Positions 3,982 to 34,546 of a stretch of DNA of 38,714 nucleotides are shown here, in pieces. The position numbers and the translations under genes are program-made. This DNA comes from Vicinamibacteria bacterium (GTDB lineage Bacteria > Acidobacteriota > Vicinamibacteria > Fen-336), in the NCBI GenBank assembly GCA_016934575.1, contig JAFGSN010000198.1, positions 1 through 38,714 on the forward strand. The letters run 5' to 3'. How positions within the stretch are numbered: position 1 is the first letter of the stretch; every line of letters begins with the position of its first letter. Under the pieces are notes generated by a model. The model was given only the letters and a program-made list of their open reading frames with translations, ran no database searches and was not told where the DNA came from.

Positions 3982-4011
3982 TTGACACGCGGCAAGACGC
4001 AATGCTACAGT
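3982..4011 (+). promoter_or_regulatory. sigma70-type promoter of the kinase operon
   Basis: TTGACA (-35, 3982-3987), an 18-nt spacer, and an extended -10 TGCTACAGT (TACAGT 4006-4011). Transcription would start near 4018. This rules out the GTG codons at 4010 and 4016 as starts of the kinase gene and favours ATG 4073. Confidence 0.6.
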
Positions 4012-4072
4012 GCCCGTGAAGGAGATCTCTCCGCGCGAGGCGGGTTATCAAGAAGATTCTTCTTGCTCTCCG

Positions 4073-6688
4073 ATGGACGACAGCACTCAATACGTCGAAC
4101 AGATGCCTGAGCGTATCGGGCGCTATGAGATCAAGTCGTGCCTTGGGTTCGGCGCCATGGGGGCGGTCTATCGGGCTTTTGATCCGCTGATCAAACGCAC
4201 GCTTGCCATTAAGACGATTCGATTGGACATCCCGCGTCAGAGTCCGCAGTACAAATCGTTCATCGAGCGTTTCTATCACGAGGCACGCATCTCCGGAACG
4301 CTTTCCCATCCGAACATCGTCACGCTTTACGACATCGGCGAGGAATCCGGCGTGCCTTTCTTGGCGATGGAGTTCGCCGACGGTGAGACGATTTCAGCCA
4401 TGATCGAGCATGGCGTTCGTTTCACGCCTGAACGTGTCGCCGTGCTCGTCAGCCAGATCGCGTCCGCTCTTGATTACGCTCACGGCAAAGGCGTGATCCA
4501 TCGTGACATCAAGCCGTCGAATCTCATTCTCTGCGAAGAAGACCGCGTCAAGGTCACTGACTTCGGAATCGCCAAGCTGGCGGACGCCGAGCTGACGCAG
4601 TCCGGCATGCTGCTCGGGACGCCGGCTTACATGTCGCCCGAGCAGGCCATGGGAGACAAGCTCGACGGCCGCAGCGATATCTTTTCTCTCGGGATCTGCG
4701 CGTTCGAGATGCTTTCGGGCGAACAGCCCTTTCCCGGCAACAATGTGACGGCGATTCTCTACAAGGTCGTTAATGTTGAACCCGTCGAGCCCGCGAATCT
4801 CGAAGTCCTGGGATTGCTGCCCGACAAATGGCGTGAGGTCTTCAATCGGGCGTTGGCCAAGAAACCCGACGATCGCTATCAGACGGCGTCCGCTTTCGTG
4901 CAGGGCCTCGAATACTGCCTCGGCTCCTGGTTCGGCCTGTCAATGGGCGAGGAAACCGCGCAGCTTGCCGCTCCCGCCGAGGCCATCGAAAGCACTGAGG
5001 CCATGCCTTCGCTTCCCGACGACGGGGAAACGGGCGCGGCCATGGAAGCGCTGTCGGCCGTCGAGAATGACGCTTCATCGTCGATCACATCCGCTCCTGC
5101 CCCGTCGATTTTTCCGGACGATGTCTCTCGGGATAAACGAATCGACAAGGAGAGGGTCGTCGCGGCGCCGCCCTCGCCTCCATCGCCCGACTCGGATGCG
5201 ACTTCCATACCAGAGGCGCCAGAGTCGCAGATCGAAAACGAACCGATCGTCGTGGCGCCTCCATCGCCCGATCCGGATGCGACTCCCATACCGACTCTGC
5301 CAGAGTCGCAGATCGAAAACGAACCGATCGTCGCGGCGCCTCCATCGCCCGATCCGGATGCGACTCCCATACCGACGCTGCCACAACTTCAATTGGAATC
5401 CGACGAGGAGCCCACGCTGCTCATGCCAAGCGCCTTGGCGGATGAGACCGAAACCATTGCCCTGAGCGCGGTCTCCGCCAAGGCGGTCAACCCGGGAGAT
5501 TCGGCGCAATCGACTCTGCCCGAAAACCGGATGGCAACGACGCCACCGCCGTTGGTTGAGCCGCGGAAAACGACGGCGCGGCCTCCCGCTCAATCGCAAC
5601 CGTCCACTTCGTCGGCCATGGAACCGAAGCGCAGGATTACTCAATCCATGCCTTCATCGGGCCGGTCTCCGCGCGCGACAGCTTCAATCAGGAAACCTGT
5701 CGCCCGCTCGCGCCCGCTCGCGCCCGCTCCCGCGCATGTCTTCCCGAAGCGCCGATCATCCATTCGCTTGGGCAAATCTTGGATCGTCGCCTCCGCCACG
5801 GGAGCGACGCTCCTGCTCGTGGCCGGCGGTTTTCTGGGGCTTCGGTTTCTCAGTGCGAATCGCGAGCGGCCACGCTCGCTCCCCGATCCGGCGACGGTCG
5901 TGACGCCGATGTCGACTCCGCCCACTCCTTCACGTGGAACTCTACGCGTCCTGAGCACGCCGTTGGGCGCCGACGTGTACATAAATGGAAAGCCGCGCGG
6001 TACGACGCCGCTCGTGCTCACGCTTCCGCTGGGGCTCTATGACGTTCGCATCTCGATGTCCAACCTCGCGCCGCAGCCGCACAAGGTCGAGCTTTCGTCC
6101 GAACAGCCCATGGTCGAATTGCATGCAAGATTCAGGATTCGTTCGTCGGGTCTTGCCACGATCGTCACCGATCCGACGGGCGCATCAATCACGCTCGACG
6201 GCCGTACCATCGGCAAAACTCCGATCCATGCCGTGAAGCTCGACGCTGGAGAACGAGTCGTCGAGATCCGGCTGGAGGGTTACCAGGTCCTGACTCGGCG
6301 GATCAACGTTGTCGCAGACCAGCGACAGGAGTTTTCGTACGTCCTCGATCCCATCGTAATCGCAACCCCAAGCCGACTTGTCGTGGACACCGAGCGTGTT
6401 TATTTTCCCCAGGACGTTGACATTCGTCCCAAGAAACTTTCGGGGCCGCATCCGGACTATCCCGACGCCCGCAAGCTCAAGGCGGGCGAGGCCGTGTCCG
6501 TTACAGTGTCTTTCGTGATCGACGCTGACGGCTCCGTCTCTGGAATCGAGGTCTCCGAATCAGGCGGCGCCGCTCTCGACAAAGCCGCCGTGAACGCCCT
6601 GAAGGAATGGCGGTTCGAGCCCGGCGTCAAGCGTGAAACGCGAGTCAGGGTCCGCGAAAGCCGGCGCTTCACCTTCAAGTCCGGATGA
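4073..6688 (+). CDS. transmembrane Ser/Thr protein kinase with PEGA and TonB C-terminal domains
   Basis: An 871-residue Hanks-type kinase with an unusual envelope half. Cytoplasmic kinase domain about residues 19-285: glycine loop GFGAMG (25-30), Lys47, HRDIKPSN (143-150), DFG (163-165) and SPE in place of APE (188-190), so it should be active. Residues 290-565 are an acidic, Pro-rich linker with 27-residue tandem repeats. One membrane helix follows (about 569-592), then two PEGA domains (about 621-757) and a TonB C-terminal-like domain (about 776-871). Start: ATG 4073, because a strong promoter covers the upstream GTG codons; no good ribosome site is visible. It overlaps the FHA gene by ATGA. 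Inference: it senses or touches an envelope component and phosphorylates a partner such as the adjacent FHA protein. Confidence 0.9.
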   Translation: MDDSTQYVEQMPERIGRYEIKSCLGFGAMGAVYRAFDPLIKRTLAIKTIRLDIPRQSPQYKSFIERFYHEARISGTLSHPNIVTLYDIGEESGVPFLAMEFADGETISAMIEHGVRFTPERVAVLVSQIASALDYAHGKGVIHRDIKPSNLILCEEDRVKVTDFGIAKLADAELTQSGMLLGTPAYMSPEQAMGDKLDGRSDIFSLGICAFEMLSGEQPFPGNNVTAILYKVVNVEPVEPANLEVLGLLPDKWREVFNRALAKKPDDRYQTASAFVQGLEYCLGSWFGLSMGEETAQLAAPAEAIESTEAMPSLPDDGETGAAMEALSAVENDASSSITSAPAPSIFPDDVSRDKRIDKERVVAAPPSPPSPDSDATSIPEAPESQIENEPIVVAPPSPDPDATPIPTLPESQIENEPIVAAPPSPDPDATPIPTLPQLQLESDEEPTLLMPSALADETETIALSAVSAKAVNPGDSAQSTLPENRMATTPPPLVEPRKTTARPPAQSQPSTSSAMEPKRRITQSMPSSGRSPRATASIRKPVARSRPLAPAPAHVFPKRRSSIRLGKSWIVASATGATLLLVAGGFLGLRFLSANRERPRSLPDPATVVTPMSTPPTPSRGTLRVLSTPLGADVYINGKPRGTTPLVLTLPLGLYDVRISMSNLAPQPHKVELSSEQPMVELHARFRIRSSGLATIVTDPTGASITLDGRTIGKTPIHAVKLDAGERVVEIRLEGYQVLTRRINVVADQRQEFSYVLDPIVIATPSRLVVDTERVYFPQDVDIRPKKLSGPHPDYPDARKLKAGEAVSVTVSFVIDADGSVSGIEVSESGGAALDKAAVNALKEWRFEPGVKRETRVRVRESRRFTFKSG
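5158..5390 (+). repeat. 81-bp tandem repeat in the kinase linker
   Basis: Two nearly identical 81-bp units (5221-5301 and 5302-5382) encode the 27-residue unit ESQIENEPIV...PPSPDPDATPIP. A degenerate partial copy precedes them (about 5158-5220). The period is a multiple of three, so copy number can vary without breaking the frame. The repeats lengthen the disordered linker between kinase domain and membrane helix. Confidence 0.85.
5701..5730 (+). repeat. three tandem decamers in the kinase gene
   Basis: CGCCCGCTCG occurs three times head to tail (last base of the third copy is C). The 10-nt period is not a multiple of three, so gain or loss of one unit would shift the frame just before the membrane helix. 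Confidence 0.8.
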
Positions 6689-13306: not shown

Positions 13307-17005
<3,699 letters not shown>

Positions 17006-31900: not shown

Positions 31901-31929
31901 TTGGCTATTCATTTACCAGTGAGTAAGAT
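31901..31929 (+). promoter_or_regulatory. promoter-like pair overlapping a palindromic operator
   Basis: TTGGCT (31901-31906), a 17-nt spacer and TAAGAT (31924-31929), each matching 4 of 6 consensus bases. The -10 lies inside the palindrome at 31917-31938, and the predicted start would fall just before ATG 31939, giving an almost leaderless transcript. Weak alone, stronger with the operator. Confidence 0.45.
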
Positions 31930-31938
31930 TACTCACTG
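31917..31938. promoter_or_regulatory. perfect 10+10 bp operator-like palindrome
   Basis: CAGTGAGTAA (31917-31926), GA, TTACTCACTG (31929-31938), immediately before ATG 31939. The words AGTGAGTAA/TTACTCACT are the kind bound by TetR-type dimers, and the site would cover the -10 box. No regulator gene for it is present in the window. Confidence 0.65.
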
Positions 31939-32061
31939 ATGCGTCAGATGTTCAGGCCCGGCAGGCTCCACCTGCCCGAGCAACGGATGTTCGTCTCCTT
32001 GCTGGTCGACGGCTTCCTACAGGCGACCCGGCCGACCTCGGGAAAGAAGCGGAGCTGCTGA
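31939..32061 (+). CDS. 40-codon ORF: RiPP-precursor-like peptide or TetR C-terminal remnant
   Basis: Encodes a basic 40-residue peptide beginning MRQMFRPGRLHLPEQ, continuing through a short hydrophobic stretch (FVSLLVDGFLQATRP) and ending in a single Cys. There is no ribosome site, but a palindrome and a -10 box sit directly upstream, so it could be read leaderless. Its stop overlaps the radical SAM start as TGATG (32059-32063). Two readings fit. It may be a precursor peptide for the two radical SAM enzymes that follow. Or the VSLLVDGFLQATRP part is the end of a TetR regulator whose body has been deleted, leaving its operator. I cannot decide from sequence alone. Confidence 0.45.
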   Translation: MRQMFRPGRLHLPEQRMFVSLLVDGFLQATRPTSGKKRSC

Positions 32062-33260
32062 TGAAGCGACCGGCATTCTTCCTGTGCTACTTCGAAACCA
32101 CCCGGAATTGCGACCAGGACTGCCCGAACTGCATGACCCGTCTCACGACCGAGCCGGCGCGCACGGAACTCACCACGGACGAGGCCAAGCGCCTGGTCCT
32201 CGACGAGCTCCTGGCCGTCTGCCCGAACGGCGCCGTTTCGTTTTCCGGCGGCGAGATCCTGCAGCGGCCCGATCACCTGGAGCTGATTGAACACAACGCC
32301 CGCAACGGGCTTTATACGTTCGTCAACACGAGCGGCGCCAGCCTGGATGCGGCGAGGCTGCGGGCGCTTAAAAACGCCGCGGCTGGTCGTCTGACCATGG
32401 GCTTCTCCCTTGATTCCGTGGATTCGTCGGTTCAGGCGAAATGCCGCTCCGGAGGACAGGAACAGTTCACGCGGTTGACACGGCTATGTGACGAGCACCA
32501 GGTGTCCTACTTCGTGCTGGTCACGATCTCCCGTCGCAATATGCACACACTGCAGCCGACTCTCGCATGGCTTAACGAAAGGAAGATCGCCGTCATCCGC
32601 TCGCCCTTCGTTCCCCGCGGCGCGGCGGCATCCTCCCGCGATCTGTGCTTCGATGCGGCCGACATGGAGCGGCATATCTCGCCGGCCCTGCGCAACCACC
32701 CGCTGAGTTACGTCAGCTTTACCCCTTTCTTCGCCGCCCCCGACGCAACCCACCTGAACGTGCTCGGCCAGAGCCTCTCTCTCGGGAGCCTGGGTTGCCA
32801 GGCCGGCCGTACGTTTATCGGCATCAACGCCGAGGGCGACGTGGCGCCCTGCGTTCATCTCCTGGACACGCCTGTCTGTTGCGGCAACGTTCGTGAGCAG
32901 CCTCTCTCCCGCATCATCGAGGAGTCGCCGATCATGCGCACGCTGCGCTCGCCACGCCCGGTTGGGGGCAAGTGCTCCCGTTGCCGTTACGGCGATTCCT
33001 GCCGCGGCTGCCGCTCGCTGGCGTACTACCATAGCGGCGACTACCTGGCGGAGGATCCGACCTGTTTCTTCATGCCCGAGACGGTGGAAACGCGAAGCAT
33101 CCATGAGGATCTGCAAACGAGGAACACGCGCGTGTTCCTCGACCATCTGGTGAATCATCGTCCCTGGAGCGACATCTTCGGTTCCGGAGGCCGCCTCGGC
33201 GTCGCCCTGCTCAATCTCAAGGCCAGATTCATGGAGCGAGTGGAAAGCTGGCTGCTATGA
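32061..33260 (+). CDS. radical SAM/SPASM domain protein
   Basis: A 399-residue enzyme that should cleave S-adenosylmethionine with a 4Fe-4S cluster. The cluster motif CDQDCPNC (C17, C21, C24; CX3CX2C) lies near the N-terminus, followed by GGE (63-65) and the barrel. From about residue 255 a SPASM domain follows with many cysteines (CQAG, VAPCVHLL, VCCGNV, KCSRC...CRGC, DPTCF), which would bind additional clusters, as in peptide-modifying enzymes such as PqqE and in sulfatase maturases. There is no visible RiPP-recognition domain. Start: ATG 32061, overlapping the stop of the 40-codon ORF. It ends overlapping the next gene (ATGA). Substrate unknown. Confidence 0.9.
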   Translation: MKRPAFFLCYFETTRNCDQDCPNCMTRLTTEPARTELTTDEAKRLVLDELLAVCPNGAVSFSGGEILQRPDHLELIEHNARNGLYTFVNTSGASLDAARLRALKNAAAGRLTMGFSLDSVDSSVQAKCRSGGQEQFTRLTRLCDEHQVSYFVLVTISRRNMHTLQPTLAWLNERKIAVIRSPFVPRGAAASSRDLCFDAADMERHISPALRNHPLSYVSFTPFFAAPDATHLNVLGQSLSLGSLGCQAGRTFIGINAEGDVAPCVHLLDTPVCCGNVREQPLSRIIEESPIMRTLRSPRPVGGKCSRCRYGDSCRGCRSLAYYHSGDYLAEDPTCFFMPETVETRSIHEDLQTRNTRVFLDHLVNHRPWSDIFGSGGRLGVALLNLKARFMERVESWLL

Positions 33261-34546
33261 GAATCCTGCTGGTCAAGCCCAAGTGGTTTGTGGCTGGCGG
33301 AGTGTACCGCTTCCTGACCCGGGTGACCTTCGCGCCGCTGCACCTGGGCATCCTGGCCGCGCTTTCACCCGGTCACGACATCACGGTGGTGGACCACGAC
33401 TGGGACGAGGTCCCGTTCAGCGGGGACTTCGACCTCGTGGGTGTCACCGCGACTTCGTATTCCTCGCAACGCGCCTTCGACATCGCGGACGCCTTTCGCC
33501 GAAGAGGCGTTCCCGTAGTCCTGGGCGGAGTGCACGCCTGCCTGATGCCGGAAGAATGCCTGCAGCATGCCGACGCCATCGTGATCGGGGAGGCGGAATA
33601 CGTATGGCGGCAAGTCCTGAAGGACGCGGCAACCGGCGGGCTGAAGAGAACTTACCGCCAGGACAAGCCAACCGACATGAAAGACGTGCCCATTCCCAGG
33701 CGGGATCTCCTCCGGCAGGACCCGCTGATCGGCACGATCCAGGCGACGCGCGGCTGCGACCACTCGTGCAGATTCTGCTACCTCCCCAGCGTGCCCTGGC
33801 ACAAGCATCGCCGTCGTGATCCCGACCTGGTCTACGAGGAGCTGAAGGGCATCCGGCAAAGGATCGTCTTCTTCGTTGACGACAACCTGTTCGCGGACGA
33901 GGACTATGCGATCGCCCTCTGCGAGAAGATCGCGCCCCTTAAAAAAGCCTGGTCCGTGCAGGCGCCCACCACCGTCACACGGAATCCGCGCCTGCTTGAC
34001 GCCATGCGGCGGTCCGGTTGTTTTTTCGTGCAGGTCGGTTTCCAGACCGTGCATCCCGATTCGCTGAAGAACGCGGGCGTCGCCCAGAACAAGATCGACA
34101 GCTACCGGGATGTCGTGAGGGACTTCCATCGACACGGCATGTCGGTTCAGGGCTTCTTCATCTTCGGCTTCGACAACGAGGACGCCCGGATCTTTGCCGC
34201 CGCGGAGAAGCACATCCGGCAGATGGACCTAGAGGACGCGCTGCTCTACATCTTGACGCCCTATCCCGGCACGCCGATCTTCGAGCAGCTCAAGCGAGAA
34301 GGTCGGTTGCTTGTGCACGAGCGGGACAAGTACGGGTGGGCCAACGCGGTTTTCCAGCCGGCGCGGATGTCGGCGGAGGAGCTGGAGAAGGGCGTTCAGG
34401 AGACCTACGGGCGTCTATATCACTTTTTCAGAAGGAGAGCGCCCTGGCAGATCCTGAAGCGTGCGCCGCTCTTCCTGCGGCACCCGCGCCTTCTCGGAAT
34501 CGTCTGGCGGGCCCTACACACGAAGGTGAACATCCTCGAAGCGTAG
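33257..34546 (+). CDS. B12-binding-type radical SAM protein
   Basis: A 429-residue protein. Residues 1-120 have the Rossmann-like cobalamin-binding fold of class B radical SAM enzymes (MRILLVKPKW, a VVLGGVHA strand-turn, IVIGEAE); the axial DxHxxG motif is not seen, so base-off cobalamin binding is expected. The radical SAM barrel (about 155-330) has the cluster motif CDHSCRFC (C167, C171, C174). The C-terminal region (330-429) is basic and helical. This family includes methyltransferases and C-C bond-forming or ring-contracting enzymes, so the reaction is open. Start: ATG 33257, overlapping the SPASM gene's stop. AGA/AGG codons are frequent here, unlike the neighbours. Likely a joint pathway with the SPASM protein. 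Confidence 0.88.
   Translation: MRILLVKPKWFVAGGVYRFLTRVTFAPLHLGILAALSPGHDITVVDHDWDEVPFSGDFDLVGVTATSYSSQRAFDIADAFRRRGVPVVLGGVHACLMPEECLQHADAIVIGEAEYVWRQVLKDAATGGLKRTYRQDKPTDMKDVPIPRRDLLRQDPLIGTIQATRGCDHSCRFCYLPSVPWHKHRRRDPDLVYEELKGIRQRIVFFVDDNLFADEDYAIALCEKIAPLKKAWSVQAPTTVTRNPRLLDAMRRSGCFFVQVGFQTVHPDSLKNAGVAQNKIDSYRDVVRDFHRHGMSVQGFFIFGFDNEDARIFAAAEKHIRQMDLEDALLYILTPYPGTPIFEQLKREGRLLVHERDKYGWANAVFQPARMSAEELEKGVQETYGRLYHFFRRRAPWQILKRAPLFLRHPRLLGIVWRALHTKVNILEA

Follow-up and report, generated by a model that had tools for sequence, protein, structure and literature searches.

A patchily inherited pair of genes for SPASM and class-B radical SAM enzymes that may act on one small molecule

The window, which is the whole 38,714-nucleotide stretch of Vicinamibacteria DNA that was analysed, contains adjacent genes for a radical SAM/SPASM enzyme and for a class-B (B12-type) radical SAM enzyme. 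The pair is co-inherited across MAGs from Verrucomicrobia, Proteobacteria, and Elusimicrobia, in which its distribution is patchy. It is proposed, with a probability of about 0.55, that the pair is a mobile, self-contained two-gene operon, the coupled enzymes of which act sequentially on one non-peptide small molecule. Both enzymes are oxygen-sensitive, and the occurrence of radical SAM enzymes in tandem usually signals difficult chemistry on a single substrate. A description of this enzyme pair was not found in the literature.

Organization of the locus

The two enzyme genes overlap by ATGA, and a 40-codon open reading frame (ORF) is joined to the SPASM gene by TGATG, in which its stop overlaps the next start. 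Both junctions had been listed in the preliminary description of the locus, and both are present, with the short ORF in frame. The product of the first enzyme gene belongs to the radical SAM/SPASM superfamily, as it contains both motifs and its Radical_SAM and SPASM Pfam domains score above the gathering threshold. The identification of the second gene as B12-type is upheld, with a partial match to the B12-binding domain. The Rfam search gave no match.

Several other genes of the window have unusual features (Table 1). One serine/threonine kinase also carries PEGA domains and, in the same chain, a C-terminal TonB domain. A 1232-residue fusion joins the catalytic domain of a 2-oxoacid dehydrogenase acyltransferase (E2) to 2-oxoglutarate dehydrogenase E1, an architecture associated with actinobacterial KGD/OdhA. 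Two long ORFs have no Pfam match at 1e-5, and the product of the second resembles a multi-pass membrane protein.

Table 1 Features of the window and of related loci (positions in the window unless a locus is named)
Feature	Position	Strand	Basis
Serine/threonine kinase, PEGA and TonB chain	4010-6688	+	
E2-E1 fusion	13307-17005	-	
Long ORF, 730 aa	24000-26192	+	
Long ORF, 626 aa	26308-28188	+	
Weak sigma-70-like promoter: TTGGCT (31901-31906), 17 nt, TAAGAT (31924-31929)	31901-31929	+	sequence
22-bp operator-like perfect palindrome CAGTGAGTAA-GA-TTACTCACTG	31917-31938	none	read from sequence
40-codon ORF MRQMFRPGRLHLPEQRMFVSLLVDGFLQATRPTSGKKRSC, accessory	31939-32061	+	coding-like codon use; homologue in L083
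Likely Shine-Dalgarno GGAG of SPASM gene, 6 nt 5' of ATG	32051-32054	+	sequence
Radical SAM/SPASM enzyme, 399 aa	32061-33260	+	Pfam, invariant cysteines, AF2 model, Foldseek
Second perfect palindrome CGAGGAACAC-GCGC-GTGTTCCTCG	33118-33141		
Class-B (B12-type) radical SAM enzyme, 429 aa	33257-34546	+	Pfam, homologue alignment, AF2 model, Foldseek
Truncated class-B gene, locus L117	7051-7650	-	
GGR flavoprotein gene, locus L088	4064-5380		
GGR flavoprotein gene, locus L113	9280-10530		
GGR flavoprotein gene, locus L114	9284-10438		
GGR flavoprotein gene, locus L115	8988-10142		

Distribution and co-inheritance of the pair

The MAG from which the window is derived has no close paralogue of the SPASM enzyme, and a search of 100 close relatives gave no match to the pair. 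A sample of 297 genomes from the phylum contained only generic SPASM homologues with at most 32% identity, and this set of approximately 30% identity has varied, uninformative neighbours. Matches in plasmid records were all below 60%, the best reaching about 31–35%, and an exact-word scan of genome contigs with the SPASM protein gave no match. A scan directed to conserved segments of the SPASM enzyme in 84,980 species genomes identified eight loci, seven of them orthologous. The search words were picked from an alignment with two artificial rows and the matches were then confirmed with the real SPASM protein; the reach of the search beyond the sampled groups rested on few conserved words. The SPASM enzymes of these loci are 75% identical to that of the window in Limisphaerales (L083), 72% in Verrucomicrobia (L085), 71% in Proteobacteria (L084), 59% in Planctomycetota (L086), 48% in Deltaproteobacteria (L088), and 45% and 43% in Elusimicrobia/Endomicrobiales (L087 and L089). 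Follow-up searches extended this set: the order of L083 contributed three relatives, the phylum of L087 six, and that of L084 one. The 17 SPASM relatives in other genomes share 38–75% identity with the window enzyme. Their incidence is low, with 5 of 320 genomes in the L083 order set, 8 of 248 in the L087 phylum set, and 2 of 331 in the L084 phylum set, most of the genomes being MAGs in which absences may be gaps. The window locus groups among loci of Verrucomicrobia and Proteobacteria in the tree, and this position, together with the patchy incidence, suggests horizontal transfer of the pair.

An orthologous class-B gene is positioned immediately 3' of the SPASM gene, on the same strand, in 10 of the 17 relatives, which together with the window makes 11 intact pairs. 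The class-B enzymes are 73–75% identical to that of the window in the close clade and 53–57% identical in Elusimicrobia. The distance between the two genes ranges from -4 to +93 nucleotides: five pairs (window, L084, L087, L089, and L118) have the ATGA overlap, L083 and L085 have junctions of +2 nucleotides, and L116, L119, L120, and L121 have junctions of 32–93 nucleotides. The overlap makes translational coupling likely in several loci. In one further relative, L117, an intact SPASM gene stands beside a truncated class-B gene with about 152 matching residues, apparently a decaying partner. Tree distances of the SPASM and class-B enzymes from the 11 shared loci are correlated (Pearson 0.98, Spearman 0.94), and this congruence indicates that the two genes travel together. 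The class-B orthologues are monophyletic with respect to outgroups with a support of 99; the SPASM clade is also separate from outgroups, with a lower support of 68.

The genes flanking the pair differ between groups of loci and include no other shared neighbour. Loci L083 and L085 have one downstream gene in common, probably because the loci are related. Neither a linked substrate gene nor a locus for a known product was found beside the pair. The CstA neighbour of the window, sought in the relatives for an empty-site comparison, reaches 46% at best. That two unrelated enzymes are adjacent by chance is scarcely credible: six SPASM relatives do not have the class-B partner, and a distant class-B homologue (L123, 42%) occurs by itself, but the intact adjacent pairs with congruent trees argue strongly against coincidence. 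The same recurrence bears out the earlier proposal of a small two-enzyme biosynthetic unit.

The six SPASM relatives without a class-B gene are L086, L088, L113, L114, L115, and L141. Directly 3' of the SPASM gene in L088 and L113–L115 is a gene for a flavoprotein of the GGR superfamily, the four proteins being 37–89% identical to each other; the SPASM gene and the flavoprotein gene form a second, different cassette. In L141, read on the reverse strand, a UbiE/COQ5-like methyltransferase gene immediately follows that of a 38% identical SPASM relative, and L086 has none of these partners downstream. Locus L084, which has the class-B gene, also contains a more distant, divergently transcribed GGR-like gene. 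The alternative partners of the GGR and UbiE types are suggestive of a small hydrophobic substrate.

The short open reading frame and the palindrome

The short ORF had raised the possibility of a RiPP-like pathway, in which the 40-codon ORF would encode the precursor and both enzymes would be its maturases. The TGATG coupling to the SPASM gene agrees with this explanation, as does codon use, which is coding-like with a GC3 of 0.90, a score equalled by 6 of the 60 ATG ORFs of 33–50 residues in the window, itself included. Furthermore, L083 has a homologous ORF of 40 codons in the same frame relative to the SPASM start. The two peptides have 13 identical residues among 27 aligned, eight of the 13 being retained through changed codons, and the frame-0 BLOSUM score of 54 exceeds those of all 2000 shuffles and of the other frames. 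The pS and pN values of the short ORF are 0.57 and 0.40, compared with 0.61 and 0.17 and 0.60 and 0.16 for the two enzymes; therefore, the constraint on the short ORF is weaker than that on both enzymes. In the branch that includes the window and L083, the short ORF is probably genuine.

However, L083 is the only one of the 17 SPASM relatives in which a homologue was detected. The short ORF is missing from the same-clade locus L085, which is the sister of L083 and has the same promoter block, from L084, and from the remaining loci, the upstream region of L141 having been inspected by eye only. A search of 17 cassette-family genomes for unlinked copies gave none that was convincing, the best other matches having E values of at least 0.06; the sensitivity of this search is limited, as even the true L083 copy had an E value of 0.28. 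Leader recognition domain, protease, and exporter were not seen linked to the pair when the neighbourhoods were inspected by eye. The conserved part of the peptide, PGRLxLP...LLVDxF, covers its start and middle, whereas the tail, the expected position of a core, diverges. The preliminary description had looked to recurrence of the pair with a conserved short ORF: the pair recurs, but almost always without the ORF, and no known product locus stands alongside. Since most relatives have no homologue of the short ORF, a RiPP pathway with this precursor is unsupported, and the ORF cannot be the general substrate of the enzyme pair. The modified-peptide pathway as first guessed is unlikely, and maturation of this particular peptide by both enzymes is improbable.

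The operator-like palindrome noticed earlier is a perfect inverted repeat. When the 176-nucleotide upstream region was shuffled 3000 times under a dinucleotide model, a perfect 10-bp palindrome with a spacer of up to 8 arose in only 8 cases, and chance occurrence of the repeat there is unlikely. It is the sole such site in the 3.98-Mb genome, with up to two mismatches allowed. The whole 38.7-kb window has three distinct perfect 10-bp palindromes, compared with 0.75 expected; the other two are intragenic, and one of these lies within the SPASM coding sequence (Table 1). The operator palindrome was found upstream of none of the related loci. Because the motif is missing at other loci and elsewhere in the genome, no regulon could be drawn. 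The palindrome had been described as covering a -10 box, and TAAGAT is indeed at its centre; however, the TTGGCT/TAAGAT promoter matches 8 of 12 consensus bases and was not called by the promoter scan. A promoter-like block is common to L083 and L085 at their own loci. The ATG of the short ORF directly adjoins the 3' end of the palindrome, leaving no space for a Shine-Dalgarno sequence, and with TAAGAT as the -10 box, the transcript would be nearly leaderless. The palindrome and the 40-codon ORF appear to be local regulatory or accessory additions.

Predicted chemistry of the two enzymes

The radical SAM cluster of the SPASM enzyme is bound by C17, C21, and C24 (CX3CX2C), and these residues, as well as all seven cysteines of the SPASM region (C246, C264, C305, C308, C314, C317, and C335), are invariant in 17 homologues. 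The C-terminal cysteines have the spacing CX2CX5CX2CX17C (2, 5, 2, 17), which is the motif of the haem synthase AhbD (PMC10452713), and the C246–C264 interval matches C256–C274 of AhbD. By contrast, the fourth AuxI cysteine, C223 in Methanosarcina barkeri AhbD, has no counterpart: in the alignment of the 17 homologues, no cysteine located between C143 and C246 is invariant. An open AuxI site has been described in CteB (PMC10452713), and the window enzyme may have a similar one. The SPASM enzyme would contain three Fe-S clusters, with AuxI ligated by at most three conserved cysteines. The best-scoring NCBIfam models for all 17 homologues are NirJ2, AhbD, and TIGR04053, far below the cut-offs: the window enzyme scores 144 bits against a cut-off of 500, and 142 against 500 for AhbD (TIGR04545). 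The window enzyme shares the radical SAM core and SPASM domain with AhbD, NirJ, NirJ2, and TIGR04053, but differs from them in these scores and in its coupling to a class-B gene.

The AF2 models of both enzymes have pLDDT values of about 80 and pTM of 0.83. In Foldseek searches with the SPASM model, the peptide and protein modifiers anSME and SuiB rank above the rest, with PqqE also near, and PqqE is first in a profile search of solved structures. The fold and auxiliary-cluster domain are the same as in the RiPP maturases SuiB, SkfB, and StsB; however, the window enzyme has no N-terminal recognition domain, and its locus no conserved precursor or linked transporter or protease. With C17 as the first cluster cysteine, the N-terminal extension is just 16 residues long, which leaves no room for an N-terminal RRE; no RRE-like domain was found within the enzyme, and the model shows no extra N-terminal domain.

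The class-B enzyme binds its cluster by C167, C171, and C174 (CX3CX2C in the alignment of 11 homologues), and the radical SAM core is preceded by an N-terminal Rossmann-like domain, as is characteristic of the class-B architecture. Its match to the B12-binding domain PF02310 (34.4 bits, cut-off 32.1) covers residues 57–118, about half of the domain, and no DxHxxG motif was seen in the N-terminal domain. Cobalamin use is likely from family membership, yet it is only putative, because of the half-length match and the missing motif. AprD4 is the best structural match (TM 0.73), MgmA is the second-ranked enzyme, and TsrM is also near; a profile search of solved structures likewise places AprD4 first. 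AprD4, a 1,2-diol dehydratase, is not known to use B12, which adds to the uncertainty about cobalamin. The class-B enzyme differs from AprD4 in scoring 46 bits against a cut-off of 500 and in having no sugar-biosynthesis genes nearby. For each of the 11 class-B members, the best-matching NCBIfam models are those of HpnJ, BchE, and the ladderane enzyme, with which they share the Rossmann-like domain followed by the CX3CX2C core; however, the scores are far below the cut-offs (117 bits against 578 for HpnJ, TIGR03471), and genes for hopanoids or bacteriochlorophyll were not seen in the neighbourhood. Enzymes of this group are described as mostly forming or rearranging rings and not as methylating (PMC13142503). 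No named system fits the pair, in agreement with the earlier impression that it was not a recognizable one.

In the proposed pathway, the two enzymes would act in succession on one molecule. The SPASM enzyme, resembling AhbD, NirJ, and PqqE, would abstract hydrogen by a 5'-deoxyadenosyl radical, and the substrate radical would then be oxidized via the auxiliary clusters. The class-B enzyme, resembling BchE, HpnJ, and the ladderane enzyme, would form or rearrange a C–C or ring bond, or possibly act like a methylase. The most probable type of substrate would be a non-peptide small molecule, either tetrapyrrole-like or an isoprenoid or lipid, an assignment from distant similarity far below family cut-offs.

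Hopanoid tailoring by the class-B enzyme as a divergent HpnJ, the hopanoid cyclitol ether family, is very unlikely. HpnJ is the top NCBIfam model overall, and hopene cyclase scores above the cut-off in five genomes of the cassette family, all from the Limisphaerales search set; however, hopene cyclase is absent from most cassette genomes, having been undetected in the genome of the window and in all eight family genomes of the Elusimicrobia set. Subject to MAG incompleteness, its absence rejects hopanoids as the general substrate. A more serious alternative, although still doubtful, is that the target of the pair is a protein or a ribosomal peptide whose gene lies in another part of the genome, as for anSME or MgmA, in which case a linked precursor is not expected. 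The high structural ranks of anSME and SuiB, which run counter to a non-peptide substrate, and that of MgmA fit this alternative, as do the non-conserved neighbours, which such an enzyme would show. Against it stand the lead of NirJ2, AhbD, and TIGR04053 in the sequence-family ranking, the lack of space for a peptide-recognition domain, and the GGR-like and UbiE-like alternative partners.

The preferred reading remains sequential action on one small molecule. More tentatively, and at somewhat less than even odds, the pair may represent an undescribed, horizontally moving pathway to a new modified cofactor, pigment, or lipid in several little-studied bacterial phyla, in which the SPASM enzyme elsewhere swaps its class-B partner for a GGR flavoprotein or a methyltransferase. 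The locus also shows that a plausible short ORF near radical SAM genes misleads towards RiPPs unless relatives are compared. The two halves of the pair are similar to enzymes that act in the ring chemistry of porphyrins, hopanoids, and lipids, and a pair that moves between distant bacteria without other genes would offer a compact entry to an undescribed product.
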